33,611 nucleotides of DNA from contig QHNR01000007.1 in NCBI GenBank assembly GCA_003218475.1, positions 1 to 33,611 of the forward strand. The letters are read 5' to 3'. A program made the position numbers and the translations under genes. Below are positions 3,241 through 30,636 of this stretch, one piece after another (position 1 is the stretch's first letter; every line of letters begins with the position of its first letter). The DNA comes from Verrucomicrobiota bacterium. Lineage in GTDB: Bacteria; Verrucomicrobiota; Verrucomicrobiia; Chthoniobacterales; UBA10450. Below the pieces are notes generated by a model, which was given only the letters and a program-made list of their open reading frames with translations, did not search any database and was not told the DNA's origin.

Positions 3241-3984
3241 ATGAAATCGACTGAACTAACTGCAGAGGAATCGACCAACGAATTCGCCGGTAACGGCGCA
3301 ACGCCATTGATCCGCCTCGAAGGCGTCACCAAAGTGTTTCTCACTGACGAAGTAGAAACGCACGCGCTTTCTGGGATTCATCTCGATATTCGCGAGGGTG
3401 AATACATTTCGATCGCAGGACCGTCTGGTTGCGGCAAGACCACGCTGCTGTCGATTCTTGGATTGCTCGATACGCCTTCAGGGGGCAGCTATGCGCTCAA
3501 GGGTAACGAGGTCGCGAATCTTTCGTTCGCTGAGCGCGCGCGCGTCCGCAACCGCGAGATCGGTTTCATTTTCCAAAGTTTCAATTTAATCGGCGATCTC
3601 AGTGTTTTTGAGAATGTTGAATTGCCGCTGACCTATCGCGGCATGAGCGCCGGTGACCGCAAAGCGCTTGTCACCGAGGCTCTGGAGCGCGTGGGCATGG
3701 CGCATCGGGCAAAACATCTGCCCAGTCAACTCTCAGGTGGCCAACAGCAGCGTGTCGCAGTCGCGCGTGCGCTTGCCGGTAGACCTGCGATTCTACTGGC
3801 GGACGAGCCGACTGGAAACCTTGACTCGCGCAATGGCGAAGCGGTCATGAGTCTGCTCAGAGAACTGCATCAGGGAGGCGCTACGATCTGCATGGTCACG
3901 CATGACGAGCGTTTCGCGCAGCACGCAGACCGAACAGTGCATTTATTCGACGGTCGCGTTGTTGAAGATCGAATGGCGGCATAG
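3241..3984 (+). CDS. MacB/LolD-type ABC transporter ATPase (first, canonical)
   Basis: Cytoplasmic ATP-hydrolysing subunit for the permeases that follow. Walker A is GPSGCGKTT at residues 60-68, the signature is LSGGQQQR beginning at 164, and Walker B is LLADEPT with Asp188 and Glu189. The D-loop is GNLDS and the switch histidine is in VTHDERF. All catalytic motifs are intact. At 247 residues it fits the LolD/MacB-NBD/FtsE class, which acts as a mechanotransmitter with MacB-fold permeases. An N-terminal extension of about 20 residues precedes the domain. The ATG at 3241 follows a 56-bp spacer carrying a heptamer repeat. The stop is 11 bp before the first permease, consistent with co-transcription. 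Confidence 0.93.
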
Positions 3985-3995
3985 GGACACCAAAA

Positions 3996-6584
3996 ATGGT
4001 TCAAGACCTTAGATTTGCTGTTCGACAGTTATTTAAGGCACCAGGTTTCACGATTGCGGCGGTCACGGTGCTGGCACTCGGCATTGGCGTGAACACGGCC
4101 GTGTTCAGCCTGGTGAACACGCTTTTCTTTGCCTCACCTGCTTATGGCAAGCCGCACGAGGTGGTGCAGCTCTTTTCCCAAGACAAGAAGAACCCTAAAA
4201 AATTTCGCGGGTTTTCTTATCCGACTTTTCTCGATATCCGCAAACAGAACACGGTTTTCAGCGACGCAATGAGTTTCAATCTCTCGTTGATCGGTATCGG
4301 CCAGAAAGGCGATACACGACGCGCGTTCGCCGCAATCGTCAGTTCGAACTATTTCTCCGTCCTCGGAGTCCCGCTAGCGCGAGGCCGCGCATTTCTGCCA
4401 GAAGAGGAAACTCCCGGCCGCAACGCCCGGGTTGCGACCGTCAGTTACCGTTATTGGCAGAAGCAGGATCTTGATCCAAGAGTGATCGGCTCGCAGGTGC
4501 TTATCAACGGCCGGTCGTTCACGATCGTCGGAATCACGCCGAAGCGATTCACTGGCACGATGCAAATTTTGTCGCCGGAGGTTTGGCTACCGATGAGTGT
4601 CTACGATCAAGTAGCGAACAATTTTGAGCCGCAGAACAAGACTGCGATTGGCGATCGCACAGGAACGCAGTTGCGCATTATCGGGCGACTTAAACCTGGG
4701 ATAACCGCCGCCGCGGCCAAGCCCGCGCTCGAAGGACTCGCAGCCAATTTGGAAAAAGCGTACCCGGTCGAGCAAAAGGACCAAACGTTCACGGTAAGGT
4801 CAGTGCCAACTAACACGGTTAGCAACAACCCGGCTGCTGACAGCGGGCTGAATGCGATCGCGCCGTTGCTGCTCGGGATGGCGGTGGTGGTGCTGCTGGT
4901 GGCATGCCTTAACCTCGCAAACATGCTGCTTGCCCGCGGCACAGCGCGACGCAAGGAAATCGCGATCCGTCTTGCGCTCGGCGGCAACCGTTGGCGCATC
5001 GTGCGCCAGCTTCTCACAGAAGGCTTTGTGCTGGCGGTGCTCGGCGGCGCGGGTGGACTCATTCTTGGACTCTGGTCGTCCGATTTGCTGGTTGGTTCGA
5101 TGCGAAAACTGATGCCGCTCGACATTGTCTGGTTGACCGGACCGAGCCCCACAATTTTGGCGGCGACGTTTGGATTTTGCCTGCTTGGCACGCTCATGTT
5201 TGCACTCGGGCCGGCCTTGAAAATCTCGCGCACTACGATGATGACCGATCTAAAGGAACATCCTGGCGAAGATGTGGTACGCCGTCGCTGGAAATTTCTA
5301 CCGCGCAACCCGCTCGTCGTTGTGCAAATCGCGTTCTCGCTCGCCCTCCTGACAGCGGCAGCTTTGTTCATTCGCGGCGCAGGTAAAGCTGCCTCTGTCG
5401 ACACGGGTTTAAAACCGGGCGCAAGCTACCTGCTCGAAGTGGACGCGAGCCTGGCTGGTTACGACTCGAAACGCGCGCAGGAACTTTATCGCAACTTGAA
5501 CCAAAGACTGGCGGCGCTACCAGGCGTCGAGCACGCGAGTATATCTTCAATAATTCCGTTCGGGATGTTTGAGCTAACCAGAAAAGTCCAACGTGCCGGT
5601 CTTCATCCCGGTCCAGACGCCAAGCCGACGACCGCCGCAGATGGCCTTGCCTTCGAGACGGCCTGGAACAGCGTCGGGGCGGATTATTTTTCGACCGTTG
5701 GATTGCCAGTGATTCGAGGTCGCGTGTTTACCGAAGCAGAGGCGACCCAGCCCGGTCCCAAGGTCGCGATTATTGACGAAGTTCTCGCAAAGAAGCTCTG
5801 GCCGGAGGGTGATGCGCTTGGACAACGCATTCAATACGCGGCCGAAAATGCGCCGTCGGCTCAGGGCAGCGGAAGTGCCCACGCTGGAAGAAGCGCCGAT
5901 TTAAGTGAAGATGAGAAGCAGGCTGAGACGATTGAAATAGTCGGCATCGTGCCGGCAACGCGCCACGCGCTTTTTGAAAAAGAACCGGTTGGCGGAATTT
6001 ACCTGCCGTTCGCGCGCGGATTCCAAAGCGACGTTTCTTTCTTCGTTCGGTTCCATTCGCTCGCTCCCGGAAACGAAGCCATCACGGCCGATTTACTACG
6101 ACGCACCGTACGCGATGTCGATGCTTCGATCCCGGTCATTTCTTTGCGAACATTTGCTCAGCATCTTGATTCGAACCTCGATCTCTGGCTGGTTCGCGCC
6201 GGCGCGGCCTTGTTTTCGATTTTTGGGGGACTTGCCCTCGGTCTTGCCATTGTTGGTCTGTACGGAGTCAAAGCCTATTCGGTCGCACGACGAACCCGTG
6301 AGATTGGGATCCGCATGGCGCTTGGCGCAAAGCCGACTGCAGTCTTGAGATTGATCATGGGCGAAGGCTTACTCATGCTTCTTAGCGGCATCGCGCTAGG
6401 TCTTCTTCTCGCTGCCGCGACCGGAAAAATACTCAGCGGAATCTTGTACGAGGTTGGCGCGTTCGATCCAATCGCCTTCACCGCAGCGCCGACGTTGCTT
6501 GCCATCGCCGCCCTCATCGCGACCTGGCTGCCGGCACGTCGCGCAGCCGCGTTAAATCCGGTCGAAGCGCTCCGGTACGAATAG
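3996..6584 (+). CDS. ADOP/MacB-like ABC permease 1 (with periplasmic insertion)
   Basis: Inner-membrane permease of the duplicated MacB type: helix 1 at about 17-44, a periplasmic MacB core domain, an FtsX helix block at about 285-420, then the same pattern again with a helix at about 440-465, a second periplasmic domain, and a final FtsX block at about 730-862. The start MVQDLRFAVRQL and the end LPARRAAALNPVEALRYE are the conserved family ends. At 862 residues it is about 45-56 longer than its six intact paralogues here. Much of the excess is a hydrophilic, low-complexity insertion at about 613-646 (rich in A, S, G, E, D) in the second periplasmic domain. It probably pairs with the ATPase just upstream. 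The substrate is unknown; MacB relatives handle lipoproteins, peptides, toxins or macrolides. Confidence 0.92.
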   Translation: MVQDLRFAVRQLFKAPGFTIAAVTVLALGIGVNTAVFSLVNTLFFASPAYGKPHEVVQLFSQDKKNPKKFRGFSYPTFLDIRKQNTVFSDAMSFNLSLIGIGQKGDTRRAFAAIVSSNYFSVLGVPLARGRAFLPEEETPGRNARVATVSYRYWQKQDLDPRVIGSQVLINGRSFTIVGITPKRFTGTMQILSPEVWLPMSVYDQVANNFEPQNKTAIGDRTGTQLRIIGRLKPGITAAAAKPALEGLAANLEKAYPVEQKDQTFTVRSVPTNTVSNNPAADSGLNAIAPLLLGMAVVVLLVACLNLANMLLARGTARRKEIAIRLALGGNRWRIVRQLLTEGFVLAVLGGAGGLILGLWSSDLLVGSMRKLMPLDIVWLTGPSPTILAATFGFCLLGTLMFALGPALKISRTTMMTDLKEHPGEDVVRRRWKFLPRNPLVVVQIAFSLALLTAAALFIRGAGKAASVDTGLKPGASYLLEVDASLAGYDSKRAQELYRNLNQRLAALPGVEHASISSIIPFGMFELTRKVQRAGLHPGPDAKPTTAADGLAFETAWNSVGADYFSTVGLPVIRGRVFTEAEATQPGPKVAIIDEVLAKKLWPEGDALGQRIQYAAENAPSAQGSGSAHAGRSADLSEDEKQAETIEIVGIVPATRHALFEKEPVGGIYLPFARGFQSDVSFFVRFHSLAPGNEAITADLLRRTVRDVDASIPVISLRTFAQHLDSNLDLWLVRAGAALFSIFGGLALGLAIVGLYGVKAYSVARRTREIGIRMALGAKPTAVLRLIMGEGLLMLLSGIALGLLLAAATGKILSGILYEVGAFDPIAFTAAPTLLAIAALIATWLPARRAAALNPVEALRYE

Positions 6585-6591
6585 ACCAACA

Positions 6592-9045
6592 ATGCAAACG
6601 CTTTGGCAGGATCTCCGTTACGGCGTGCGGATGTTGCTTAAGCAGCCGGGCTTCAGCCTCACTTGCATCGCGGCGCTGGCCCTCAGCATCGGTGCAAACA
6701 CTGCGATCTTCAGCGCTGCCAACGCACTTCTGCTTCGGCCGTTACCAGTTGAGGACATCGATCGCGTAGTTGTCCCGGTCACGTTACGGGAAGGGTTTGA
6801 TCCTTTCGGATCCCCGTTCTTAGAGTACGCCGCATATCGGGACCGGGCTCATTGTTTCGCCAGCAGCGGTGTCGCGACGGCACGTTCCTTCAATTTAACC
6901 GGCCAAGGTGAGGCGGAACGTGTCCGGGGCGCCACCGTGACGGCCAATTACCTGTCGACGTTGGGCACAAAACCGGTGCTCGGTCGGACATTTTCAGCTG
7001 ATGACGATCGACCAGGTGGATCGCCAGTGGCGTTGATAAGCTATGGGCTTTGGCAGAAGCATTTTGGTGGCAACGGCGACGTCATCAGTCAATCACTCAA
7101 TCTCGACGGACGAAATTACAACATCATAGGCGTAATGCCTCCGGGGTTCGATCTCCCTGGCATCGCCGATGTTTGGGTCCCGTTGCAAACGGACATCGAC
7201 AGTTTGCCTTTGACCGAGCGCGCAGCGACGAACAATACGATTGTCGCGCGGCTACGGCCGGGCGTCAGTTTGGGACAGGCGGATGCAGAACTAAAAGCGA
7301 TCGCGCACCAACTCGAACAAGAGTATCCCGATTTTCGCCGCGGGTGGACGGTGAAAGTACTCTCGCTTCGTCAGGATTTGCTGGGCGATTTGGAAGGTCG
7401 AGTGCACAACGCGTTGTTCGCGCTCATGGCCGGGGTCGCATTTCTTTTGCTGATTTGTTGCGCAAACATAGCCAATCTGCAATTGGCTCGTGGAGTCGCG
7501 CGCGAACGAGAACTCGTACTGCGACGCGCGCTTGGCGCGGGGCGTTGGCGCATTGCCAGACAACTTCTCACCGAGAACATACTTTTGGCGGTGATCGGTG
7601 GGACGGCCGGTCTGCTTCTCGCGTACTGGCTGCTTCCGATTCTCGTAGCCCTGAATCCGATTCAAGGAATTTCGCTGGCTGCCTTTTTCCACAATTTTTC
7701 AATCGACCAGCGGGTTTTGGTCTTTGCTTTGTGTGTCAGCGTTCTTACGGGCATCGCCTTTGGGTTGCTGCCGGCCCTTAAAGGCGCTGGTGCGCATGAG
7801 CTGATGCCGCGAATCAAGCAGGGTGATCAACGCAGTGGCGGCGACGTTGCCGGCCGCCGGTGGTTAAAGGGATTGATCGTGGCTGAGATCGCGATCGCGT
7901 TGACGCTTCTGGTTTGCGGTGGGTTGATGGTGCAAAGCTTTCAGCGACTGCAACACGTAGCTCTCGGCTTCAGTCCCGACAATCTCCTGACGATGAAGAT
8001 GGTGTTGCCGCTCTCGAGATATTCGGAATATCGCCAGCGCATCGCGTTTGCGGATGAGGTGGTTGAACGGACTCGGAATCTAGCCGGCGTCGTTTCTGCC
8101 GGAATGACGACAAACATTCCGCTCGAGCGCGAGACGGCTTACGACGCAATCTTCGATGTTGAAGGGCGGCCATCTGCAAACCCGAACGACGTGCCAATCA
8201 CAGCGCACCGGATCGTTAGTCCGGGCTATTTGGAAACGATGGGCGTTACATTGATCAGGGGCCGATTAATCAACAAAAGCGATCGTGCCGACAGTTTGCC
8301 TGTTGTTGTTGTCAGCGACGAGTTCGCGCGACAGGGTTGGCCGGGAGAAGACGCAATCGGCAAACGGGTTCGTCGCATTCGCGCCGGACAGATCTTTCCA
8401 TGGATGACCGTCATCGGCGTGGTCAAAGACGTGAAGGAGGATCTCTTCAATTACCGGATCAATCGCCCGGTCTGGTATGTCCCTTACGCGCAGGTGGAAA
8501 ACAATTTCCCGCTCAACCTCGTCGTGCGGACACGCATCGATCCAAAGTCGCTCACCGCCGCCTTGCGTGATGTCGTCCGTACAGCCGATCCGGACCAACC
8601 CGTCTCAAACATCATGACAATGAACACGATTCTAAACAGCGTGCTCGTGACCGAGCGTTTCGGTGCGGTTTTGATGGGAACGCTGGCGCTTTCGGGCCTG
8701 ATGCTCGCATCTATTGGGCTCTACGGTGTGATGGCCTATGCGGTGAAACAGCGAACAGGAGAGATTGGGTTGCGGATTGCGCTGGGCGCGCAGCGGAAGC
8801 ATGTCCTTGCTCTGTTCATCGGAGAGGGTATGAAGCTGACCTTCTTGGGCGTGATCATTGGATTGATCGCGGCCTGGGCCGCAACACGGCTCTTGGTTAG
8901 CTTGCTTTTCGGCCTGGGCGCAACAGACACCGCCACCTTCTGCGCCATCACTCTGCTTCTTGCTCTAACCGGATTGATTGCCTGTTATTTTCCTGCACGC
9001 CGTGCGCTGAGTGTCGATCCAGTAATCGCGCTACGCGCCGAATAG
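6592..9045 (+). CDS. ADOP/MacB-like ABC permease 2
   Basis: An 817-residue duplicated permease. It begins MQTLWQDLRYGVRMLLKQPGF and ends YFPARRALSVDPVIALRAE. Helix 1 is at about 18-44, the first FtsX block starts near 274 (ALFALMAGVAFLLLICCANIANL), the second half begins near 424, and the last FtsX block starts near 690. The cytoplasmic loop RTGEIGLRIALGAQRKHVL is of the type that contacts the ATPase in this fold. It starts 7 bp after permease 1 and ends 8 bp before permease 3, so translation is probably coupled. It is clearly divergent from permeases 1, 3 and 4, so this is an old duplication rather than a recent one. Confidence 0.92.
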   Translation: MQTLWQDLRYGVRMLLKQPGFSLTCIAALALSIGANTAIFSAANALLLRPLPVEDIDRVVVPVTLREGFDPFGSPFLEYAAYRDRAHCFASSGVATARSFNLTGQGEAERVRGATVTANYLSTLGTKPVLGRTFSADDDRPGGSPVALISYGLWQKHFGGNGDVISQSLNLDGRNYNIIGVMPPGFDLPGIADVWVPLQTDIDSLPLTERAATNNTIVARLRPGVSLGQADAELKAIAHQLEQEYPDFRRGWTVKVLSLRQDLLGDLEGRVHNALFALMAGVAFLLLICCANIANLQLARGVARERELVLRRALGAGRWRIARQLLTENILLAVIGGTAGLLLAYWLLPILVALNPIQGISLAAFFHNFSIDQRVLVFALCVSVLTGIAFGLLPALKGAGAHELMPRIKQGDQRSGGDVAGRRWLKGLIVAEIAIALTLLVCGGLMVQSFQRLQHVALGFSPDNLLTMKMVLPLSRYSEYRQRIAFADEVVERTRNLAGVVSAGMTTNIPLERETAYDAIFDVEGRPSANPNDVPITAHRIVSPGYLETMGVTLIRGRLINKSDRADSLPVVVVSDEFARQGWPGEDAIGKRVRRIRAGQIFPWMTVIGVVKDVKEDLFNYRINRPVWYVPYAQVENNFPLNLVVRTRIDPKSLTAALRDVVRTADPDQPVSNIMTMNTILNSVLVTERFGAVLMGTLALSGLMLASIGLYGVMAYAVKQRTGEIGLRIALGAQRKHVLALFIGEGMKLTFLGVIIGLIAAWAATRLLVSLLFGLGATDTATFCAITLLLALTGLIACYFPARRALSVDPVIALRAE

Positions 9046-9053
9046 CCAACTTA

Positions 9054-11498
9054 ATGCAAACGTTTTTTCAAGACCTGCGTTTCGGCTTCCGAATGCTTCG
9101 GCGTAGTCCCGGTTTTTCCATTCTGGCGATTCTTTGTTTGACACTTGGCATTGGCACGAACGCGGCCGTGCTCAGTTGGATCGAAGGCATTCTGATCCGC
9201 CCCTATCCACTGGTACCGCATCAGGCCCGCATGTTTGCGCTTGTCGGCACGACCCGCGGCGTGCCGGGACATAATGGGCTTTCCTTTCCCGACTTCGTCG
9301 ATCTTCAAAAGAATTCCACACTGTTCGAGTCATTCATCGTCGATCGCATTACCGGCACAACTTTGAGCGTCGGCGACCGTGCCGAACGCGCATCGGTGGG
9401 AATAGTGTCGCCGAATTATTTCGATGCACTCGGAGTAAAACCAATCCTCGGTCGCGGATTTAGACCCGAAGAAGGGACTGGACGCAATGGGCATCCCGTC
9501 ACGGTGATCGCTTATCGAACCTGGAAAGGTCGCTACAATTCCGACCCGAACATTATCGGGCGGACGCAATTTATGAACGGCGTTCAGCATATGATCATCG
9601 GCGTCGCGCCGGAAAGATTCCACGGCACGTTCGTGGGGTACTCATTCAGTTTCTGGGTGCCGACTTCAATGCAAGAGACGTTCGACACTACGGGCTACAA
9701 ATTGGAAGATCGAGGCGCGCGCTGGATAGAGGGGTACGCGATTTTGAAACCTGGCGTGTCACGTCAGCAAGCGCAGGCCCAGCTGAATTCAATCTCGCAA
9801 CGCTTGGAAAAAGATTTTCCGGATTCGAATCGCGGCCACGAGAACCAGCTCGTCCCATTGTGGAAAACGCCGTTCAACGGCGCCGGAAACATGACGTCCA
9901 CGCTCGCGATCACGATGGCGGTGGTGTTTTTGGTTTTGCTGATCGCGTGCGCCAATGTCAGTAATCTTTTGCTCGCGCGGTCGCTCTTGCGCCGTCACGA
10001 GATGGCGATGCGCCTCGCGCTCGGCGCCGGCCGACGCCGTCTAGTCAGGCAATTGGTGACCGAAGGTTTGTTGCTTTCGCTGATCGCAGCGGTCGGCGGA
10101 ATTGCAGCCGCATATTGGTGTCGTAATGCACTCGTTCTTGCGTTTCCCCCGCCGTTGCCTGGAACCGTGATCGACTTCCCCGGCCAAATCGATTGGCGCG
10201 TGCTCGCCGCGAGCGCCGGAATTTGCATGGCATCAACCCTGTTATTTGCGCTCGTGCCCGCGATTCGCGCGAGCGATGTCGATCTTTCAAACGCGCTCAA
10301 AGCCGAAGCTGGCGGCGTTCTCGGCGGCAGCAGCCGATCGCGATTGCGTTCTGCGCTCGTACTCGTGCAGGTCTCGCTGAGTTTCATTTTACTCGCCGGC
10401 ACCGGATTGCTTTTGCAAAGCCTGATTAAAATGCGAAGCGCGAGTCCCGGCTTTAACACGAATGTGGTTTCCTCCGTGGTTGATTTGTTTTCGGCCGGCT
10501 ACAAGCTGGACCGCGCCAAGATTTTTCATACCCAGTTGCTGGATCGTGTGCGGACACTGCCTGGCGTTGAATCGGCCGCACTTACGCGTGTGATTCCGTT
10601 TAGTTATAACGTTTTTTCTTCGGCACCCATCGAGGTCGACGGATACCAGCCGCCGCCGAACGAACAACCGACAGTGGAGTATGTGGAAGTCACGGAAGAT
10701 TACTTCACGACGCTTGGAATCCCGATTATTTCCGGCCGCGAGTTTATGCGCACCGACGACGAGAATGTGCCGCCGCTGGCAATTATCAACGAAACGATGG
10801 CCGCGAAATATTGGCCAGGAAAGAATCCGGTGGGCCAACGCCTCAAGGCCAAAGATCGTTGGCTGCAGATCGTCGGGATCGCCAGAAATTCGAACTACCG
10901 CAGCAAAACTGAGACGCCCGTTCCATTCTTTTACGTACCGCTGCGGCAGAATTTTCGCGTGCAAAACACTCTGCTCATTCGGACGCCTGAAACACCAGGC
11001 GCGATGATGAACGCGCTCGCGCGCGAGGTCCACGCGCTCGATCCGAATCTGGCGCCGCTGATCACCGAGCGGCTCCAGGACCAAATTGATGAAATCAGTT
11101 ACAGCCAGCGATTAGCGGTCACGCTCGTTGCGCTTTTCGGCGCGATGGCGCTTTTCCTGGCGGCAATCGGATTGTACGCGGTGATGTCGTACACAGTTTC
11201 GCAAGGCATCCACGAGTTTGGACTCCGGATGGCGCTCGGCGCGGGCACCAAAGATCTTTTGAAATTGGTCATGTCGCGCGGAGTTCGACTGACTGCCACC
11301 GGAATTATGATCGGAGCTGCAGCGGGCATGATGCTCACGCGTTTGATGGGCAGCTTGCTGTACAAAGTGAGTCCGCGCGATCCCCTGGCGTTTGGATTGG
11401 CCTTTCTGGTGATCACGATCGCGTCCCTGGCTGCGTGTTTCTTGCCCGCCTGGCGCGCGACACGGATCGATCCAGTTCGAGCGTTACGGAATGAATAA
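9054..11498 (+). CDS. ADOP/MacB-like ABC permease 3
   Basis: An 814-residue duplicated permease with the two MacB-core plus FtsX halves. The first FtsX block starts near 284 (LAITMAVVFLVLLIACANVSNL), the second half starts near 432 (RSALVLVQVSLSFILLAG), and the final FtsX block starts near 687. The end is FLPAWRATRIDPVRALRNE; the usual LPARRA is LPAWRA here. It has ILSWIEGILIRPYPL where most paralogues read FS(L/I)(I/V)N after helix 1, making it one of the more divergent members. Its stop codon overlaps a possible upstream start of permease 4, which points to tight coupling. Confidence 0.91.
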   Translation: MQTFFQDLRFGFRMLRRSPGFSILAILCLTLGIGTNAAVLSWIEGILIRPYPLVPHQARMFALVGTTRGVPGHNGLSFPDFVDLQKNSTLFESFIVDRITGTTLSVGDRAERASVGIVSPNYFDALGVKPILGRGFRPEEGTGRNGHPVTVIAYRTWKGRYNSDPNIIGRTQFMNGVQHMIIGVAPERFHGTFVGYSFSFWVPTSMQETFDTTGYKLEDRGARWIEGYAILKPGVSRQQAQAQLNSISQRLEKDFPDSNRGHENQLVPLWKTPFNGAGNMTSTLAITMAVVFLVLLIACANVSNLLLARSLLRRHEMAMRLALGAGRRRLVRQLVTEGLLLSLIAAVGGIAAAYWCRNALVLAFPPPLPGTVIDFPGQIDWRVLAASAGICMASTLLFALVPAIRASDVDLSNALKAEAGGVLGGSSRSRLRSALVLVQVSLSFILLAGTGLLLQSLIKMRSASPGFNTNVVSSVVDLFSAGYKLDRAKIFHTQLLDRVRTLPGVESAALTRVIPFSYNVFSSAPIEVDGYQPPPNEQPTVEYVEVTEDYFTTLGIPIISGREFMRTDDENVPPLAIINETMAAKYWPGKNPVGQRLKAKDRWLQIVGIARNSNYRSKTETPVPFFYVPLRQNFRVQNTLLIRTPETPGAMMNALAREVHALDPNLAPLITERLQDQIDEISYSQRLAVTLVALFGAMALFLAAIGLYAVMSYTVSQGIHEFGLRMALGAGTKDLLKLVMSRGVRLTATGIMIGAAAGMMLTRLMGSLLYKVSPRDPLAFGLAFLVITIASLAACFLPAWRATRIDPVRALRNE

Positions 11499-11499
11499 C

Positions 11500-13920: not shown

Positions 13921-14017
13921 GCCGAATTTCTGATTCCTGATTACCCGGTACTTATTTGGAAATTCTATGCTAAACCACCGACTGATCATCGCGCTGAGTC
14001 GCAACGGCTGATTCATC

Positions 14018-14692
14018 ATGATCAAGCTCCGAAATCTCGAACGCAGGTATCCGTTGGCGAAGGAGAAGTTTTTTTACGTCCTGCGTGATATCAACATCGA
14101 CATCCAGGAAGGCGAGTTCATTTCAATCATGGGCCCATCCGGCGCGGGCAAATCCACGCTGTTGCACATTCTCGGAATGCACGACCACGGCTGGCGCGGC
14201 GAATACTTTTTCCGTGAAACTGCGGTGCATCACTTGAAAACGAAGGAACGCGCTACGCTGCGGAACGAGCAGATCGGCTTCGTGTTTCAGCAGTATCATT
14301 TGCTCGATGACCTGACGGTATACGAGAACCTCGACATCCCGTTGTCGTATCGCCGGTACAGCAAAAGCGAGCGCGCCGCGCTGGTGGCCGACACGCTCGA
14401 TCGTTTCCAAATCGTTGGTAAAAAAGATTTATATCCGCGTCAACTGTCAGGGGGGCAACAACAACTGGTCGGTGTTGCGCGCGCAATCATCGCTGAACCA
14501 AAACTTCTACTCGCTGACGAACCCACGGGAAACCTGCACTCCGGTCAGGGCGAAGAAATCATGGAACTATTTCGCAAGCTCAATGACGAAGGCATGACCA
14601 TCATTCAGGTCACGCACTCGGAAAAAAACGCATCGTATGGCAAACGTACTATTCAACTGCGCGACGGCTGGATTACGAAACGAGAGCAATGA
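14018..14692 (+). CDS. ABC transporter ATPase (second) with variant signature and D-loop
   Basis: A 224-residue MacB/LolD-like ATPase and probable partner of the second permease set. Walker A is intact (GPSGAGKST, 39-47), Walker B keeps the catalytic glutamate (LLADE, Glu168), and the switch histidine is His200 in VTHSEK. Two positions differ from ATPase 1. The signature reads LSGGQQQLVGVARA (143-156), with Leu150 where Arg is usual. The D-loop reads GNLHS, with His174 where Asp is usual. The Q-loop region FVFQQYHLLDDLTVYENLDIP is well formed. It is probably still able to hydrolyse ATP. From memory this variant recurs beside ADOP permeases, so it looks like a lineage rather than a mutation; a search would settle that. 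It ends 1 bp before permease 5. Confidence 0.92.
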   Translation: MIKLRNLERRYPLAKEKFFYVLRDINIDIQEGEFISIMGPSGAGKSTLLHILGMHDHGWRGEYFFRETAVHHLKTKERATLRNEQIGFVFQQYHLLDDLTVYENLDIPLSYRRYSKSERAALVADTLDRFQIVGKKDLYPRQLSGGQQQLVGVARAIIAEPKLLLADEPTGNLHSGQGEEIMELFRKLNDEGMTIIQVTHSEKNASYGKRTIQLRDGWITKREQ

Positions 14693-14693
14693 C

Positions 14694-17114
14694 ATGAACG
14701 ATCTCAAATTCGCTCTTCGCCAACTTCGCAAGTCACCGGCTTTTACTTTAATTGCGGTCCTGACACTCGCGCTCGGGATTGGATTAAACACTGCCATTTT
14801 CAGTCTCATCAACGACCTGTTTCTGCGCGGACTGCCGTTCAAGGAGCCGCAGCGACTCGTGCACATGTATTCGAACGCGCGCGAACGCAACCTGCTCGAG
14901 CTCGCGATCTCCGTGCCGCGCTTTGAGCATTATCGCGATAGTCAGACGATCTTCGACGGCTTCGGCGCGGAAAACGTCTCCGCATTCAGGCTCACCGGGC
15001 TCGGCGATGCGGTGCAGGTCCTCGGCGGGCAGGTGACGTCGAACTATTTCGATGTGCTCGGCGTCCGACCGATTCGCGGTCGCAACTTTTTGCCGGAGGA
15101 AGAAAAAACCGCCGATGTGGCGATGGTGACGGAGAACTTCTGGCGCAAACGCCTCGGCGGCGATCCGAATGCAATCGGCCGCGGCATCACGCTGAACGGT
15201 ATGCCACACACGATTGTTGGCGTCTTGCCGAACCTGCCGTTCTCGTGGGTCGGGCCTGGGGCGGAAGTATGGACGACGAAGCCGTTCGAGATCGCCGGAA
15301 TTTCATACGAGCGCATCATGCGTGGCTCGGGTGTTCTACGCGTTGTCGGACGGCTGAAACCGGGAATGACATTGGAGCAGGCGCGCGCTGCGTTGCCGCC
15401 GCTCGAGCAAAGCTACCGCGCCCGATATCCGGACAAGATCGACAGCTCATCGGTGATGACGCTGAAAACATTAGCAGAGGACACGACCGGAAATCTGCGG
15501 CCGGCGTTTGTGATATTGCTCACCGCGGTCGGGTTTGTGCTGCTGATCGCATGCAGCAATGTTGCGAACCTGTTGCTCGTCAGGTTCAGCGGACGGCGGC
15601 GCGAAATCGCGTTACGCATGGCGATTGGTGCCTCGCGTCGCGGCGTTGTGCGGCTCTTCATTTTCGAGAGCTTGCTCGTAAGCGTCATTGCTGGGATCGC
15701 GGGTGCGTTGCTCGCCTGGTACGTCGTTCCGATCGTGCCGAAAATGGCGTCGAACTTTCTGCCGTTCGATCCCGATACGCGCGTCGAGCTTTCGTTAGGC
15801 GTGCTCGGCTTCACGATCGTGATGTCGATCCTCACCGGCGTCGTGATGGCTATTTATCCGGCGCTGCAAACTTCGCGCGCCGATCTCGTCGGTGCCTTAA
15901 AGGAAGGCGGCCGCGGAACGAGCGGCAGCGCGCAGCAACTGCGCTTCCGCAAATTCTTGATCGGCGCGCAGGTCGCGTTGTCGGTCACGTTGCTCGCGGG
16001 CGCGGCGTTGCTCATCACCAGCTTTGTGCGGCTGAGCCAGCAAAGCATCGGCTATCGCGCCGACAATCTCTGGATTGGCTTCGTGACTTTGCCGCAGGCG
16101 CGCTATCCCGACGACGCTTCGCGAGAACGTTTCGCGGAACAAACTCTGGCAGCGCTGCGCAACGCGCCGGGGATCGAGAGCGCGACCATGTGCGCGGACA
16201 TTCCGCTGATTCCCGCCGGTAGCAGCAACACGCTCTATGCGCGGCCCGAGAGCGAGATTCTGCCGATTGACAAGCGCGCGGCTGCTGCGTTCCACAACGT
16301 CGCGCCTGATTATTTCAAGACCTGGGGCATTCCACTTTTGGCAGGGCGCGATTTCAACGAACACGACGTCGCCGGTGGCCAGAACGTGATCCTGATCAGC
16401 CAGAGCGGCGCGAAGAAGATTTTCGGCAACGAAAGTCCGATCGGCAAAACGCTGCTCGTCGGCAGTGACAGCACGCCAGCGGAGATCGTCGGCATCGTTG
16501 GCGACGTGCGCACGCGCAAGATCGCGGAGCCTGACGATGTAGAACTCTACCGGCCTTGGGCGCAGCAAAGTTTTTCGTTCCTTAGCATCGATGTGCGCAG
16601 CAATCTCAGCGTGGACGCGGTCACGAAGTTGGTGCGCTCCGCGTTGGCGACCGTCGATCCCGGTCTCGCAGTCGCGCTGCCGCAATCGATGAGCGCGATC
16701 GTTGCACAAGCCGTCGGCCAGACGCGGTTGATGATGTGGTTGCTCGGCATTTTCGCGGGCGTTGCGCTGTTGCTCGCGAGCATTGGGATTTACGGCGCCG
16801 TTGCCTACACCGTCGAGCAACGCACCGGCGAGATCGGCGTGCGCATGGCGCTCGGCGCACAAACGCGCGATGTCCTGCAACTCGTCGTGAAACAGGGGAT
16901 GAAGCCGGTCCTGAGCGGCCTGGCGCTCGGCATCATCGCGACATTCGCGCTCGGCCGTTTGATCGCAGCGCAGCTCTATCAAGTTTCGGCGCATGACCCG
17001 GTTCTGCTCGGCGGCGCAACAGTTCTGCTCGCGGCGACCGCACTGATGGCGTGTCTGCTCCCGGCCCGCCGCGCTACACATGTGAATCCGATTCAAGCAC
17101 TACGCACCGAGTGA
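14694..17114 (+). CDS. ADOP/MacB-like ABC permease 5
   Basis: An 806-residue permease from the ATG at 14694 (MNDLKFALRQLRKSPAF). The reading frame is open back to 14637, but that start would lie inside the ATPase gene and add 19 residues that permeases 6 and 7 lack. FtsX block 1 starts near 271 (AFVILLTAVGFVLLIACSNVANL), the second half near 419 (RKFLIGAQVALSVTLLAGAA), and FtsX block 2 near 679. The end is LLPARRATHVNPIQALRTE. It forms a close paralogue group with permeases 6 and 7, sharing LLVRFSGRRREI and VAYTVEQRTGEIGVRMALGA. Permease 7 is the closer match, although 6 lies between them. The gene looks GC-richer by eye than permeases 1-4. Confidence 0.92.
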   Translation: MNDLKFALRQLRKSPAFTLIAVLTLALGIGLNTAIFSLINDLFLRGLPFKEPQRLVHMYSNARERNLLELAISVPRFEHYRDSQTIFDGFGAENVSAFRLTGLGDAVQVLGGQVTSNYFDVLGVRPIRGRNFLPEEEKTADVAMVTENFWRKRLGGDPNAIGRGITLNGMPHTIVGVLPNLPFSWVGPGAEVWTTKPFEIAGISYERIMRGSGVLRVVGRLKPGMTLEQARAALPPLEQSYRARYPDKIDSSSVMTLKTLAEDTTGNLRPAFVILLTAVGFVLLIACSNVANLLLVRFSGRRREIALRMAIGASRRGVVRLFIFESLLVSVIAGIAGALLAWYVVPIVPKMASNFLPFDPDTRVELSLGVLGFTIVMSILTGVVMAIYPALQTSRADLVGALKEGGRGTSGSAQQLRFRKFLIGAQVALSVTLLAGAALLITSFVRLSQQSIGYRADNLWIGFVTLPQARYPDDASRERFAEQTLAALRNAPGIESATMCADIPLIPAGSSNTLYARPESEILPIDKRAAAAFHNVAPDYFKTWGIPLLAGRDFNEHDVAGGQNVILISQSGAKKIFGNESPIGKTLLVGSDSTPAEIVGIVGDVRTRKIAEPDDVELYRPWAQQSFSFLSIDVRSNLSVDAVTKLVRSALATVDPGLAVALPQSMSAIVAQAVGQTRLMMWLLGIFAGVALLLASIGIYGAVAYTVEQRTGEIGVRMALGAQTRDVLQLVVKQGMKPVLSGLALGIIATFALGRLIAAQLYQVSAHDPVLLGGATVLLAATALMACLLPARRATHVNPIQALRTE

Positions 17115-17115
17115 T

Positions 17116-19530
17116 ATGAACGATCTCAAATTCGCTCTTCGCCAGCTCCGCAAATCCCCGGCGTTCACTTCGATCGCGGTGATCACGCTTGCACTCGGTA
17201 TCGGCTTGAACACGGCGATCTTTTCGCTGATCAACGATCTCTTCCTGAAAGGCCTGCCTTTCCAGGAACCGGAGAGGGTCCTGCATATCCTGACCAAGGG
17301 GAAAGACCGGACGGACGAGTTCCAGATGTCGGCGCTGCGATTCATGCTTTATCGGGACGGGCAGACGATTTTCTCGGGGTTCGCGGCGGAGAATCAACAG
17401 GCGGCGACAGTGTCGGGTCTCGGCGATCCGTTGTCGGTGCCGATTTTCAAAGCGACCGCAAACTGGTTCGACGTGCTCGGCGTGCGGCCAATCATGGGAC
17501 GAACCTTTCTGCCGCAGGAAGAAGAAGGCGCGGATGTGGCGATCATCACGGACCGCTTTTGGAAAGCGCGGTTCGCCGGCAGTCAGGACATCATCGGGAA
17601 AACGATCGTGCTCGATGGCGTGGCGCACACGATCGTGGGCGTGATCGCAAAGATGCCAGTCTCGTGGACGGGACCGAACGCGGACGTCTGGACGACGAAG
17701 CCGATGGTCATCCCGGGTTTCTCGTATGAAAAGATGATGCGCGGCTCGGCGTTCCTGCGCGTGATCGGGCGCTTAAAGCCGGGCGTTACACTTGACCAGG
17801 CGAAGGCGGCGCTGGGCACGCTCGAGGACAGTTACCGCTCGCAATTTCCGGAGAGGGGCGACGCGCAAGCGCGCAACATCATTAAGACGCTTCCGGAAGA
17901 TGTGACGGAGAATTTGCGGCCCGGGTTCGCGACTCTGCTAACAGCGGTCGGGTTCGTTTTGCTCATCGCTTGCAGCAACGTGGCGAATCTGCTCCTAGTG
18001 CGGTTCAGCGGACGGCGCCGCGAGATTTCGCTCCGGCTGGCGTTGGGCGCGACGCGCGGCAGCGTCCTGCGACTTTTTGTTTTCGAGAGCGTGCTGATCA
18101 GTCTGCTGGCGGGAATTCTCGGTGCGGCGCTGGCTTGGCAGCTGGTTCCACTTGTGCCGAAGCTGACAGCGAACTTTCTCCCGATCGAACAGGGAAGCGC
18201 GAGTGCGCTCTCCGTGCCGGTGCTCTTGTTCACGATTGGGCTTTCGCTCGTGACGGGATTCGCGATGGGTCTTTATCCGGCGTTGCAAAGCTCACGCGCG
18301 GATATCGTCGATGCGCTCAAGGAAGGCGGCCGCGGCACCCAGGGAAGTGTGCGTCAACAGCAGTTCCGGAAAATTCTGGTGGGCGCGCAGGTGGCGCTCT
18401 CCGTTACGCTGCTCGCGGGCGCGTCGTTGCTCATCACGAGTTTCGTGCGCCTGAGTCAGCAGGATCCCGGGTTCAACACGGACAAACTCTGGATCGGAGT
18501 CACGGTTTTGTCGCAGGCCCAACATCCCGATCAGGCGAGACGGGCGCGTTTCGCCGAGCAATTGCAAACGGCGTTGCGCGCGACTCCGGGATTCGAGGAC
18601 CTGATGTTGAGCAGCAGTTTTCCGCTATTCGGCAACCCGGGCGCGACTCTCTATACACGGCCCGAAGGCAACGTGCCTCCGGTTGCCGAGCGAAAAGGCG
18701 CGCCGTCGAACGACATCATGCCGGGCTGGTTCCGCGCTGCGGGCATTCCGTTGATCGCGGGCCGCGATTTTAACGAACAGGACGTGATGGATCATCCGAA
18801 CGTCATCATCATCAGCAAAGCGGGCGCGAAGACGGTGTTCGGCGACGAGAATCCGATCGGCAAAACGTTGCTGATCACGAACGGCAGCGTGCCGGTCGAG
18901 ATTGTCGGCGTCGTCGGCGATGTGCGCTCGGTGCAATTGAATCACGCGAACAACATGGAATTTTATCGTCCATTCGCCCAGGAGAGTTGGCCGTTCCTCA
19001 AAATCGTGGTGCGCAGTCCGCTTCCGCCGGAAACGATCACGTACTCGATTCAGACCGCGCTGCGCAGCATCGATCCGAGCCTTGCTCTAATCTGGCCGCA
19101 GCCATTCAGCGAAATCATGGCGCAGGCCCTCGGCCAAGCGCGGCTGATGATGTGGTTGCTCGGAATTTTTGCCGGAGTCGCCTTGCTCCTCGCCAGCATC
19201 GGGATTTACGGCGCGGTTGCTTACACGGTCGAGCAACGCACTGGCGAAATCGGAGTTCGCATGGCGCTGGGTGCGCAAACACGCGACGTGTTGCGCCTGG
19301 TTGTGAATCAAGGCATGAAACCCGTCCTCGTCGGGCTTGCGATCGGGATTGCAGCGGCTTTTGCGCTCGGTCGTTTAATTGGTTCGCAGCTTTATCAAGT
19401 TTCGGCGCACGATCCACTGCTGCTCGGCGGCGCAACAGTTCTGCTTATGGCGATCGCACTCATGGCGTGTCTGCTCCCCGCACGCCGTGCCACAAACGTC
19501 GATCCAATTACCGCGCTTCGGTCTGAGTAG
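17116..19530 (+). CDS. ADOP/MacB-like ABC permease 6
   Basis: An 804-residue permease starting MNDLKFALRQLRKSPAF, with the ATG 1 bp after the stop of permease 5. It has the same two-halves layout: FtsX block 1 from about 271, half 2 near 419, FtsX block 2 near 676 (LMMWLLGIFAGVALLLASIG). The end is LLPARRATNVDPITALRSE. It shares its first 17 residues with permease 5 but differs through much of both periplasmic domains, for example TKGKDRTDEFQMSAL where 5 and 7 read SNA followed by a different sequence. That is what would be expected if the periplasmic parts are adapted to different substrates while the membrane and ATPase-contact parts are conserved. Confidence 0.92.
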   Translation: MNDLKFALRQLRKSPAFTSIAVITLALGIGLNTAIFSLINDLFLKGLPFQEPERVLHILTKGKDRTDEFQMSALRFMLYRDGQTIFSGFAAENQQAATVSGLGDPLSVPIFKATANWFDVLGVRPIMGRTFLPQEEEGADVAIITDRFWKARFAGSQDIIGKTIVLDGVAHTIVGVIAKMPVSWTGPNADVWTTKPMVIPGFSYEKMMRGSAFLRVIGRLKPGVTLDQAKAALGTLEDSYRSQFPERGDAQARNIIKTLPEDVTENLRPGFATLLTAVGFVLLIACSNVANLLLVRFSGRRREISLRLALGATRGSVLRLFVFESVLISLLAGILGAALAWQLVPLVPKLTANFLPIEQGSASALSVPVLLFTIGLSLVTGFAMGLYPALQSSRADIVDALKEGGRGTQGSVRQQQFRKILVGAQVALSVTLLAGASLLITSFVRLSQQDPGFNTDKLWIGVTVLSQAQHPDQARRARFAEQLQTALRATPGFEDLMLSSSFPLFGNPGATLYTRPEGNVPPVAERKGAPSNDIMPGWFRAAGIPLIAGRDFNEQDVMDHPNVIIISKAGAKTVFGDENPIGKTLLITNGSVPVEIVGVVGDVRSVQLNHANNMEFYRPFAQESWPFLKIVVRSPLPPETITYSIQTALRSIDPSLALIWPQPFSEIMAQALGQARLMMWLLGIFAGVALLLASIGIYGAVAYTVEQRTGEIGVRMALGAQTRDVLRLVVNQGMKPVLVGLAIGIAAAFALGRLIGSQLYQVSAHDPLLLGGATVLLMAIALMACLLPARRATNVDPITALRSE

Positions 19531-19535
19531 TTTTT

Positions 19536-19744
19536 ATGCAGAACCTTCGTTACGCATTCCCGCGTTCTGGCCAAACAGCCGCTCTTTACCGCGATCGTCA
19601 TTTTGACGTTTGCGCTTGGGATTGGCGCGAATACGGCGGTGTTCAGCGTTCTCAATGCGTGTTGCGGTCGCCTTTGTCGCCTGCCTGGTGCCCGCTCGCC
19701 GCGCCAGCCTGGTCGACCCAATTCAAGCAATAAGCACTGAATGA
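19536..19744 (+). pseudogene. Collapsed ADOP permease relic (ends only)
   Basis: A relic of an eighth permease reduced to its two ends. It starts ATG with MQNLRYAF, then one extra C in the CCC run at 19559-19561 shifts the frame. Beyond it, [15 protein letters not shown] and [16 protein letters not shown] match the first membrane helix of the family. Near 19657-19669 the sequence jumps straight to the family C-terminus in another frame: [17 protein letters not shown] and DPIQAISTE, ending at the TGA of 19742-19744. About 2.2-2.3 kb of the middle is missing. The retained start resembles the MQxL class of permeases 2 and 3 more than its MNDL neighbours. It is not expected to make a functional product. 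Confidence 0.85.
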
Positions 19745-19771
19745 ATTTCGAACCGATAGCCACAGACTCAT

Positions 19772-22192
19772 ATGAACGACATCCGTTTCGCATTTCGTAA
19801 ACTTCGACAATCACCGGCGTTCACCGCGATCGCCGTGCTCACGCTCGCGCTCGGCATCGGGCTGAACACGGCAATCTTCAGCCTGATCAACGATTTATTT
19901 CTGCGCGGCCTGCCATTCAAAGAACCGCGGCGCGTTGTGCATTTCTTTTCCAACGCGCCAGACGGCAAGCTGGTCGACCTTCCCCTGTCGCTACCACGGT
20001 TTCAGCATTATCGCGATGGCCAGACAATTTGTGAGGACCTCGGTGCCGAAAATCTGTTTGCGTTCACGTTGACGGGACTTGGCGACGCTGTGCAACTGTT
20101 CGGTGGCAGAGTGACGTCGAACTATTTCGACGTGCTCGGTGTGCGTCCGATCCGTGGCCGCAACTTTTTGCCTAACGAAGAAGAAGCCGCCGATGTGGCA
20201 ACGGTCACGGAAAATTTCTGGCGGAAACGAATGGGCGGAGACCCGAACGTCATTGGCCGCAGCATCACTCTCGACGGCGTGGCGCACACGATTGTTGGCG
20301 TGTTGCCGAATCTGCCGTTTGCCTGGGTCGGCCCGAACGCCGAGGTCTGGACAACCAAGCCGTACGTGATTCCCGGTTTCACGTACGAGCGAATGATGCG
20401 CGGCACCACCTTTTTGCGCGTCGTAGGCCGGTTGAAACCGCGAATGACCGTAGAACAAGCGCGAGCCGCGTTACCTGCGCTAGGTCAAAGCTATCGCGCC
20501 GAATTTCCGGGTAAGATCGATAGCGCGTTGGTCACAACCCTGAAGACGCTTCCAGAGGATGTGAGCGGAAATTTGCGCCCCGCGTTTGCGACACTGTTCG
20601 CTGCGGTGGCTTTCGTGTTGCTCATCGCCTGCAGTAATGTTGCAAATCTGCTGTTGGTCCGGTTCAGCGGCCGCCGCCGTGAGATCGCGTTGCGAATGGC
20701 GATTGGCGCGTCCCGCACGGGCATCGTCCGGCTGTTCGTATTTGAAAGTTTGCTCGTGAGTTTTCTCGCGGGAATCGTCGGCACCGTGTTGGCCTGGCAA
20801 TTGGTCCCGCTCGTTCCGAAAATGGCCGCGAATTTTTTGCCGTTCGATCCCAACACACGCGTTAACCTCTCTTTTTCGGTACTCGGTTTCACAATTGCAT
20901 TGTCGATTTTGACCGGGCTGTTGATGGGAATCTATCCTGCACTTCAAAGCTCGCACGCCGATCTGGTAGATGGACTTAAGGAAGGCGGCCGCGGAATGAC
21001 CGGCAGCGTGAGGCAACAGCGCTTCCGAAAAATTCTTGTCGGCGCGCAAGTGGCGCTCTCGGTGACGCTACTCGCCGGCGCCGCATTGCTGATCACGAGT
21101 TTCGTGCGTCTCAATCAGCAAAATGTCGGCTACCAGTACAGAAATGTTTGGATTGGCTTCGTCACTTTACCGACAACACAATACTCTGATCTCGGGACGC
21201 GGCAGCGTTTCGTAGAGCATTTGCTCGCCTCGTTGCGAGCGGTTCCAGGTTTTCAAAATGTCGCTGCCAGCGGTGATATTCCGCTGCTGCCCGGCGGCGC
21301 TAACGCGACGCTTTATTCGCGCGCTGATGGCGAGGTGTTGCCGGTGGACAAGCGGGCGACGGCCCCAAGCCACGACGTTTCGCCCGGTTATTTCAAGACC
21401 TGGGGCATTCCTGTTCTGGCAGGACGCGATTTCGATGAGCATGATACCGCGGATCATCAGAACGTCGTTCTCATCAGTCAGTCAGGGGCGAAAAAGGTTT
21501 TCGGCAACGAAAATCCGATCGGCAAAACGCTCTTGGTCACGAGTTCCGGCACACCGTGCGAGATCGTCGGCATCGTCGGCGACGTTCGCTCGCGAAAGGT
21601 CAACGAGCCTGACGATATGGAATTTTATCGGCCCTCGGCGCAGGAGAACTTTCCATTCCCGACGATTGTAGTACGCACCAATTTAAGAGAGGACGCCGTC
21701 ACAAAATTGGTGCGCTCAACGCTGGCGACTGTTGATCCTGGTCTTGCAATCGCGTTGCCACAATCAATGGAAAAGATCATCGCACAAGCCCTCGGCCAGA
21801 CTCGGCTGATGACCTGGCTGCTCGGAATTTTTGCAGCAGTCGCGTTGTTGCTTGCGAGCATCGGAATTTATGGCGCGGTCGCGTACACAGTCGAACAACG
21901 CACTGGCGAAATCGGTGTGCGCATGGCGCTCGGTGCGCAAACGCGAGATGTTCTTCGCCTGGTCATCAACCAGGGCATGAAACCCGTTGTCATTGGACTG
22001 GCGATCGGGATCGGGGCGGCATTAGGGGTAGACCGCTTAATTGCCACCCAACTTTACCAGGTTTCGGAACACAACCCCGCTCTGCTCGGCGGCGTAACTG
22101 TGTTGCTCGCAATGATTGCCCTGATCGCATGCTTGTTGCCGGCGCGACGCGCCACTCACGTTGATCCAATCGAAGCGCTCCGTTACGAATGA
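19772..22192 (+). CDS. ADOP/MacB-like ABC permease 7
   Basis: An 806-residue permease starting MNDIRFAFRKLRQSPAF, 27 bp after the permease relic. It follows permease 5 closely along most of its length, for example VTSNYFDVLGVRPIRGRNFL, FDPxTRV and LATVDPGLA, with the same block positions: FtsX 1 near 271, half 2 near 419, FtsX 2 near 679. The end is LLPARRATHVDPIEALRYE. It is the last gene of the array; the next gene, 124 bp on, is a secreted protein of different type. Many third-position differences from permease 5 show that the similarity is held by selection and is not a fresh copy. Confidence 0.92.
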   Translation: MNDIRFAFRKLRQSPAFTAIAVLTLALGIGLNTAIFSLINDLFLRGLPFKEPRRVVHFFSNAPDGKLVDLPLSLPRFQHYRDGQTICEDLGAENLFAFTLTGLGDAVQLFGGRVTSNYFDVLGVRPIRGRNFLPNEEEAADVATVTENFWRKRMGGDPNVIGRSITLDGVAHTIVGVLPNLPFAWVGPNAEVWTTKPYVIPGFTYERMMRGTTFLRVVGRLKPRMTVEQARAALPALGQSYRAEFPGKIDSALVTTLKTLPEDVSGNLRPAFATLFAAVAFVLLIACSNVANLLLVRFSGRRREIALRMAIGASRTGIVRLFVFESLLVSFLAGIVGTVLAWQLVPLVPKMAANFLPFDPNTRVNLSFSVLGFTIALSILTGLLMGIYPALQSSHADLVDGLKEGGRGMTGSVRQQRFRKILVGAQVALSVTLLAGAALLITSFVRLNQQNVGYQYRNVWIGFVTLPTTQYSDLGTRQRFVEHLLASLRAVPGFQNVAASGDIPLLPGGANATLYSRADGEVLPVDKRATAPSHDVSPGYFKTWGIPVLAGRDFDEHDTADHQNVVLISQSGAKKVFGNENPIGKTLLVTSSGTPCEIVGIVGDVRSRKVNEPDDMEFYRPSAQENFPFPTIVVRTNLREDAVTKLVRSTLATVDPGLAIALPQSMEKIIAQALGQTRLMTWLLGIFAAVALLLASIGIYGAVAYTVEQRTGEIGVRMALGAQTRDVLRLVINQGMKPVVIGLAIGIGAALGVDRLIATQLYQVSEHNPALLGGVTVLLAMIALIACLLPARRATHVDPIEALRYE

Positions 22193-30609: not shown

Positions 30610-30636
30610 GGCCGGGAGGTAGCGTCTGGCGAAAGA

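Follow-up and report, generated by a model that had tools for sequence, protein, structure and literature searches.

What powers the permeases of the acidobacterial duplicated orphan permease (ADOP) family is the question raised by a row of genes in contig QHNR01000007.1 of a Verrucomicrobiota bacterium (Chthoniobacterales, assembly GCA_003218475.1). The whole stretch analysed, 33,611 nucleotides long, is called the window; it is contig C99 of its host assembly, a 3.16-Mb draft of 195 contigs with 83% completeness. A histidine kinase, a small open reading frame (ORF) for a 92-aa protein, a HlyD adaptor, the ATP-binding cassette (ABC) ATPase A1, four ADOPs (P1 to P4), a second ATPase (A2), two ADOPs (P5 and P6), an ADOP remnant and one last ADOP (P7) follow each other, all on the forward strand. 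To our knowledge, the family is described as essentially never adjacent to ATPase genes. In the window P1 and P5 directly follow ATPases, and the absence of a neighbouring ABC ATPase, which belongs to the definition of an ADOP, does not apply. The locus was read as a sigma54-controlled operon of a modular Type VII (MacB/YbbAP-like) ABC system, in which one pool of ATPases drives many permeases and the gene order is inherited, with a probability of about 0.6. Chance is excluded as an origin of the row because the family scores are high and like loci occur in relatives.

Permeases, ATPases and their co-occurrence

Seven intact permeases, P1 (3996–6584), P2 (6592–9045), P3 (9054–11498), P4 (11491–13920), P5 (14694–17114), P6 (17116–19530) and P7 (19772–22192), scored 745, 910, 857, 923, 853, 846 and 853 bits against TIGR03434, all above the cut-off of 622.3 bits (range 745–923), and each carries two MacB_PCD and two FtsX stretches in one chain (Pfam). 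P5 likely starts just after the stop codon of A2, though its ORF opens at 14637; the TIGR03434 match begins at residue 21 of this long ORF. The remnant (19561–19741) was found by tblastn with the permeases, its pieces being searched separately as well, and consists of an N-terminal piece (19561–19692) and a C-terminal piece in another frame (19661–19741), with the middle lost. Seven intact permeases and one dead copy, as counted in the initial annotation, were thus recovered, and its four-plus-four split behind two ATPases holds when the remnant is included, as 4 + (3 + remnant). The LPA(R/W)RA motif, which it had assigned to all eight copies, is literal in five of them, with FPARRA in P2, IPARRA in P4 and VPARRA in the remnant.

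P1 to P4 share 32–38% pairwise identity and are, judged by their sequences, old paralogues, and P5 to P7 share 64–74%. Broken or split ADOP copies were also observed in relatives (L018 3897–6207, L028 10692–13199, L012 206–2527); these are either decayed genes or errors in the assembly of metagenome-assembled genomes (MAGs), and they suggest turnover of the array members.

P4 was modelled with 76 window and related sequences, giving a predicted local distance difference test (pLDDT) score of 90.8 and a pTM of 0.85. The model contains two halves of four transmembrane (TM) helices, eight in total, along with two periplasmic domains and a pair of coupling helices near residues 303–311 and 714–722, the TM and coupling helix positions being an interpretation of the model's secondary structure. 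The P4 model thereby shows the traits of Type VII ABC proteins, a periplasmic core between TM1 and TM2, a coupling helix between TM2 and TM3 and halves of four TM helices, and the Foldseek matches point to the same type. The best Foldseek neighbour was YbbP of E. coli (9ge6), matched over the full length with an E value of 1.2e-20, a TM-score of 0.44 and a root-mean-square deviation of 12.5, and the conformations of the model and YbbP probably differ. MacB, a streptococcal MacB-like permease and LolE came next, and MacB was the top PDB sequence match of the permease profile. Because the model is a fused unit of eight TM helices with two coupling helices, one ADOP would correspond to one MacB or LolCE dimer. 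Over 76 ADOPs the mean identity was 56% and 62% in the two coupling helices vs 30% and 28% in the two periplasmic domains, in line with the proposal of the initial annotation that divergence is mainly periplasmic. The second coupling helix is identical across P5 to P7, and their periplasmic domains are 55–61% identical. The permeases differ mainly in the periplasmic heads, and probably in substrate.

Both ATPases, A1 (3241–3984) and A2 (14018–14692), matched ABC_tran of Pfam, and the stop codon of A1 lies 11 bp ahead of P1 and that of A2 immediately ahead of P5. The Walker A lysine, the Walker B glutamate and the residues of the Q-loop and H-loop were kept in both, two A1 rows being gapped at the H-loop in the alignment. 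A1 has canonical motifs; A2 carries His instead of Asp in the D-loop and Leu instead of Arg in the signature helix. Among 88 distinct A1 sequences the signature-helix residue was R throughout and the D-loop residue D in 87 and X in one, and among 98 distinct A2 sequences the D-loop residue was H in all 98 and the signature-helix residue L in 96 and M in 2. The top PDB relatives of A1 and A2 are Type VII ATPases, and the PDB chains of the five alignments displayed carry R and D at these positions. A1 and A2 are old, distinct families, whose profiles gave own scores of at least 382 bits and cross scores of at most 259 bits (81 A1 and 96 A2 sequences from the fetched loci). The best NCBIfam matches of A1, DarD and LolD, were below cut-off.

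From the ATPase scan over named genomes, with at least 573 loci, the best 80 were kept. Among the matches listed, the nearest named A2 relative belonged to the soil MAG AV72 ('Verrucomicrobia bacterium', 91% identity), and further close matches carry the names Spartobacteria and Chthoniobacterales; the host is accordingly a soil verrucomicrobium, with a likely kinship to Ca. Udaeobacter. A2 was found in MAGs named Acidobacteria, Gemmatimonadetes and Verrucomicrobia, and in the isolate Silvibacterium bohemicum. Its placement varies: beside A1, with ADOPs between, or apart. A constant position of A2 beside A1 was rejected, both lying within about 15 kb in 19 of 35 genomes counted by hand. A2-type genes apart from adaptor, A1 and ADOPs, as far as the stretches reached, were observed in L101 (10001–10681), L119 (9986–10681) and L076 (10001–10666).

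Two samples were used for the co-occurrence of ATPases and ADOPs in whole genomes, 149 genomes of the phylum of Silvibacterium with a requested completeness of at least 95%, and 213 genomes of the window's order, many of them incomplete MAGs. ADOPs were accepted at E ≤ 1e-150 in the phylum sample and E ≤ 1e-120 in the order, with up to six and up to four matches scored per genome, respectively. In the phylum sample ADOPs were present in 57 of 149 genomes, and A1 (at least 387 bits) in 56 of these 57 and in none of the 92 without ADOP. Eight more genomes showed weaker A1-like matches only (313–338 bits), one of them being ADOP-positive; the 57th, G219, has a relative of 329 bits. A2 existed in 38 genomes, 36 with and two without ADOP, and each of the 38 has A1 as well (35 genomes) or else a weaker A1-like ATPase (3 genomes). 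At least six ADOP matches were scored in 30 of the 36 ADOP-positive genomes with A2 vs 3 of the 21 without it. In the window's order ADOPs were present in 84 of 213 genomes; A1 occurred in 67 of these 84 and in 2 of the 129 others, and A2 in 58 of the 84 and in 0 of the 129.

Copy numbers are low for the ATPases and high for the permeases. In the window's order A2 is single in 58 of 58 genomes and A1 in 64 of 69 (two copies in 5 of 69), and a genome holds several to dozens of ADOPs against one or two A1 and one A2. The HlyD/RND_mfp-type periplasmic adaptor (1859–3184; TIGR01730 111.6 bits vs the cut-off of 94.9, also HlyD_3) was found in 70 of 213 genomes, as a single match in 66 of them and as two matches in four, three of which were side-by-side pieces. 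These counts make it probable that the permeases share one adaptor, as supposed earlier, together with a small pool of ATPases. The single adaptor of the initial annotation also stands, with the correction that it lies upstream of the interval 3241–22192 in which it had been counted.

Shared ATPases or dedicated pumps

The phrase 'acidobacterial duplicated orphan permease' occurs in one of the papers found, in the RAST annotation counts given for two Dyadobacter genomes in PMC11573002. Matches to the ADOP profile (E ≤ 1e-30) numbered at least 34–47 in seven of eight genomes and nine in the eighth; the scoring covered 46 candidates, and some of the matches may be relatives outside the family. 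A part of these matches, ADOPs longer than 780 aa in three genomes, was taken as a sample of orphans. No A1- or A2-type ATPase was found within about 4 kb on each side of 46 orphans (25 in Silvibacterium, 9 in Bryobacterales F-183 and 12 in a Gemmatimonadota genome), and three of the stretches contain a distant ABC match of 26–35% identity. Genome G139, with one copy each of A1 and A2, contains another tandem row of seven ADOPs (L187, G139:C18:143000-162900), the seventh truncated by the stretch end, and no ATPase lies within 20 kb there. Between array and orphan ADOPs the coupling helices are 54% and 60% identical, and among array members 56% and 62%. The host's own eighth ADOP (L001/L185, G000:C108) is an orphan, extended by about 90 residues at its N terminus. 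It is from such distribution that we infer a physical sharing of the A1 and A2 pool by the permeases.

Several results weigh against the shared pool. The genome counts above were not corrected for phylogeny and ignore shared ancestry. A1 occurs without A2 in 21 of the 57 ADOP-positive genomes of the phylum sample, and A2 must be dispensable because these genomes have A1 alone. In the window's order 17 of the 84 ADOP-positive assemblies, many of them incomplete MAGs, have no A1 and nine have neither ATPase. Two ADOP-negative genomes of the phylum sample have A2, and two of the order have A1. In the 5.4-kb locus of the host's orphan ADOP L001, a search allowing up to one mismatch gave no sigma54 site. 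The side of a permease relative to A2 was conserved in 109 permeases (10 changes on a FastTree tree vs a shuffled mean of 36.1) and again after 24 permeases had been added (16 changes vs 39.9, 133 permeases), with 0 of 500 shuffles as low in either set. The 24 added permeases stand before A2 at loci with no visible A1, and include a P7 relative of L011 that is contrary to the conserved side. The trees omit loci with A1 directly beside A2, rows shorter than 700 aa, and L009, L071, L072, L075 and L144 as repeat records of included loci; their long branches make the details unsure. A fully random permease order, which a first look at the relatives had implied, was ruled out by the 109-permease result, and so the random order without ATPase–permease pairing that would have spoken against the initial annotation was not what the relatives showed. 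Within a segment the permease order changes among relatives, and the side of A2 stays, with exceptions such as P4.

Conserved sides are what two dedicated pumps in one operon would leave, with A1 driving the permeases between A1 and A2, A2 driving the later ones, and the adaptor alone being shared. Besides the two tree results, every relative of P1, P2 and P3 with a visible 5' ATPase follows A1 and has no A2 ahead of it (5, 11 and 6 rows, among them pieces of one gene; in several the A2 lies beyond the contig end), and of seven such rows with relatives of P5 to P7, six have the permease after A2. However, P4 relatives were found on both sides of A2, L011 has a P7 relative ahead of A2, and in L019 a P5-like copy comes immediately after A1. 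For the sampled orphans no side exists, and functionless inheritance of gene order would give the same pattern. The coupling helices, where an ATPase would dock, are alike on both sides (109 rows): the residues that best separate A1-side from A2-side permeases are mostly periplasmic, and information on side is lowest in the coupling helices. A dedicated docking surface was rejected accordingly, the test being weak because the entropy of the coupling helices is low. Dedicated pumps are a less probable but live explanation beside the shared pool.

A narrower version of the shared motor would join A1 and A2 into an asymmetric heterodimer docked on both of the dissimilar halves of each ADOP, A2 bringing its changed D-loop and signature-helix residues to one of the two ATP sites. 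Such a motor would be shared in trans by tens of orphans per genome in Acidobacteriota, Gemmatimonadota and Verrucomicrobiota, and the 92-aa protein would be an extra regulator in the verrucomicrobial form. It is favoured because all 38 genomes with A2 in the phylum sample hold A1 or an A1-like ATPase, and because the His of the D-loop is invariant in 98 sequences. At least in the 21 ADOP-positive genomes without A2, though, A1 must work alone, which argues against the heterodimer. In G220 and G269, both without A2, an ADOP adjoins A1 in the printed rows, and this suggests that A1 alone can serve. The ATPase heterodimer is a rather improbable refinement.

Two further explanations were weighed. 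An ordinary MacAB-like efflux locus could have grown by duplication and decay, with no functional sharing beyond the operon. The remnant, the split copies of L018 and L028 (whether decay or assembly error) and the close similarity of P5 to P7 (64–74%) suggest, at the level of sequence, birth and death of array members, and MacB and MacA genes were counted as macrolide efflux in a MAG of Ca. Udaeobacter (PMC7343977). Against this origin, P1 to P4 are old paralogues of 32–38% identity, the promoter, small protein, adaptor, A1 and A2 were retained across many genera, and the association of A1 with ADOPs reaches genomes whose permeases are located elsewhere; duplication and decay alone are unlikely. 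Pairing of different ADOPs into permease heterodimers, which the initial annotation had proposed, is suggested by the several paralogues encoded together and by the fold neighbours of the P4 model, LolC/LolE and Spr0695-type relatives, which act as dimers. Yet each ADOP already holds two MacB_PCD and FtsX halves, and the P4 model folds as one unit of eight TM helices with two coupling helices, like the pseudo-symmetric YbbP. Since the model shows a covalent MacB-like dimer, heterodimers are unneeded, and the proposal was given up as very improbable.

Promoter, small protein and surrounding genes

The consensus of sigma54 promoters is TGGCAC-N5-TTGCW. The 231-bp spacer between the kinase and the small ORF contains a sigma54 (RpoN) promoter, TGGCACGGACATTGCA (1530–1545), with 0 mismatches, and this is the sole exact site of the window, lying between kinase and adaptor. 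With at most two mismatches the pattern was not enriched in the window (21 vs 18 in shuffled sequence); weight is given solely to the exact match and to its conservation. Sigma70-like promoters and terminators were also in no excess over shuffles. Upstream of the adaptor in relatives an exact site was present in 28 of 80 loci and one with a single mismatch in 15 of 80, a few of the 80 being repeat records. The exact sites are confined to the window's order, mostly to its family, and in most family relatives the element is located between about −330 and −580 relative to the start of the adaptor; L021 and L028 of the same genus had no site within 700 bp.

The sensor histidine kinase (8–1342) is AtoS/ZraS-like, with HATPase_c and a weak PAS match in Pfam, and its putative start codon at position 8 was chosen from relatives. 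The window starts at this gene. In L018 an NtrC-type regulator with Sigma54_activat sits upstream of the orthologous kinase, and such a regulator adjoins the kinase in L018, L142, L076 and L104. In L076 the regulator and kinase come after the A2-type ATPase.

The first gene of the operon, previously unannotated, encodes the 92-aa protein (1574–1852), which has the pattern [FY]F-x2-E and one C-terminal hydrophobic segment, and matched no Pfam or NCBIfam family above cut-off. All 29 distinct loci compared (31 less two repeat records) had an orthologue, placed first behind the promoter and immediately ahead of the adaptor; the choice of loci was biased towards success because an adaptor of more than 65% identity, a sigma54 match and the motif were required. 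No clear orthologue was found in four more distant loci with a sigma54 site (L010, L055, L056 and L144). The gene gave pN/pS values of 0.15–0.59 in the twelve closest pairs and a median of 0.67 over 74 pairs, uncorrected.

From the small ORF onward the intergenic gaps are at most 11 bp or overlaps, with three exceptions, 56 bp 5' of A1, 97 bp 5' of A2 and the 241-bp region of the remnant. Around the adaptor in relatives the kinase, adaptor and A1 recur, and the permease set varies. No TolC gene was found by Pfam among the main ORFs of the locus, as had been noted before; the OEP (outer-membrane channel) genes of the host genome are on contigs C152, C103 and C44. OEP adjoins A2 in L142 and L118. 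In Silvibacterium bohemicum (L142, 7568–15672) the adaptor, A1, A2, a TolC-type OEP, an NtrC-type regulator and a kinase stand together, with no ADOP in the 20-kb stretch, and the genome holds 38 ADOP-profile matches.

Downstream of the array, a 1075-aa sortilin/VPS10-type BNR-repeat protein (23191–26418) is followed by a guanylate/adenylate cyclase domain protein and then a TPR protein. An asparagine synthase-like protein and two GT4-type glycosyltransferases come after (28708–33173) and resemble the beginning of a gene cluster for a surface polysaccharide.

Proposed mechanism and comparison with known systems

In the modular system proposed, an envelope signal would be read by the kinase, its NtrC-type partner and RpoN would be activated, and the whole row would be expressed. 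Each ADOP would be a covalent pseudo-dimer, and the machine would become complete when two separate ATPase subunits bind to the coupling helices, one pair of each. The movement of MacB stalks and heads by ATP binding and hydrolysis has been described as mechanotransmission (PMC5985334), and a Type VII mechanism of this sort may be predicted for ADOPs by analogy: ATP binding and hydrolysis would shift the stalks and periplasmic heads, and the heads could take up substrates or lipids in the periplasm or inner membrane and push them into the common HlyD adaptor and an OEP channel encoded elsewhere. Direction and substrates of transport are putative. A1, nearly constant, and A2, found mostly in ADOP-rich genomes, may drive permeases in cis and in trans, orphans included, and different heads would handle different substrates.

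ADOPs form large paralogous families in some soil bacteria, and no description of their power source was found. No paper linking ADOPs, or acidobacterial duplicated permeases, to an ATPase partner was found in a search for which subscription journals and bioRxiv were mostly outside the scope, so that this is weak evidence. The ATPase assignment, the partner with a His D-loop, the promoter and the small protein were also absent from the literature found, the last two not having been searched by name. With A1 as a candidate partner, the invariant change in A2 and the conserved sigma54 locus, the power question becomes testable in cultured acidobacteria, e.g. Silvibacterium. If true, a shared motor with exchangeable heads would be unusually economical for ABC exporters, and would be a reason for caution in scoring every permease of this kind as a pump for macrolide resistance.

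The components are of known types, the permeases being members of a named family and the machine a Type VII ABC system, and 'undescribed system', for which the initial annotation named the locus as a candidate, is too strong a term. P1 to P7 are members of TIGR03434, and the window departs from the family as defined through A1 and A2, which co-occurrence suggests as ATPase partners. YbbAP(-TesA) of E. coli is similar in having a separate ATPase and one pseudo-symmetric permease chain. According to PMC12646458, the single YbbP chain binds two YbbA, has an extra TM pair, and forms a complex of YbbA:YbbP:TesA at 2:1:1. This linking pair, TM5-6, brings YbbP to 10 TM helices and is absent from the ADOP model with its eight. 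Unlike YbbAP, the window adds an adaptor, sigma54 two-component control, two ATPases and many permeases, and the NCBIfam scores stayed below the cut-offs (YbbA 206.8 for A1 and 149.1 for A2 vs 336; YbbP 18 vs 999).

LolCDE shares with the window the Type VII fold and a separate ATPase, with a LolD score of 219.5 bits for A1, below the cut-off of 307.75. In LolCDE two different permeases form the dimer, and neither adaptor nor TolC is known to be involved. MacAB-TolC has the MacB_PCD and FtsX domains and a HlyD-type adaptor in common with the window, but in MacB the ATPase is fused to a dimerising permease of four TM helices, whereas the window has separate ATPases and a fused-dimer permease of eight, and its adaptor is not a MacA equivalog (38 bits vs 342). 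The darobactin exporter DarBCD, which PMC11559228 describes as a permease, a membrane fusion protein and a separate ATPase, has the same component types, and DarD and DarC were among the best NCBIfam matches of the window. The scores remained below cut-off (DarD 255 and 233.5 vs 375, DarC 75.6 vs 450, DarB at most 38 vs 700), and DarBCD has one permease and one ATPase where the window has seven and two.

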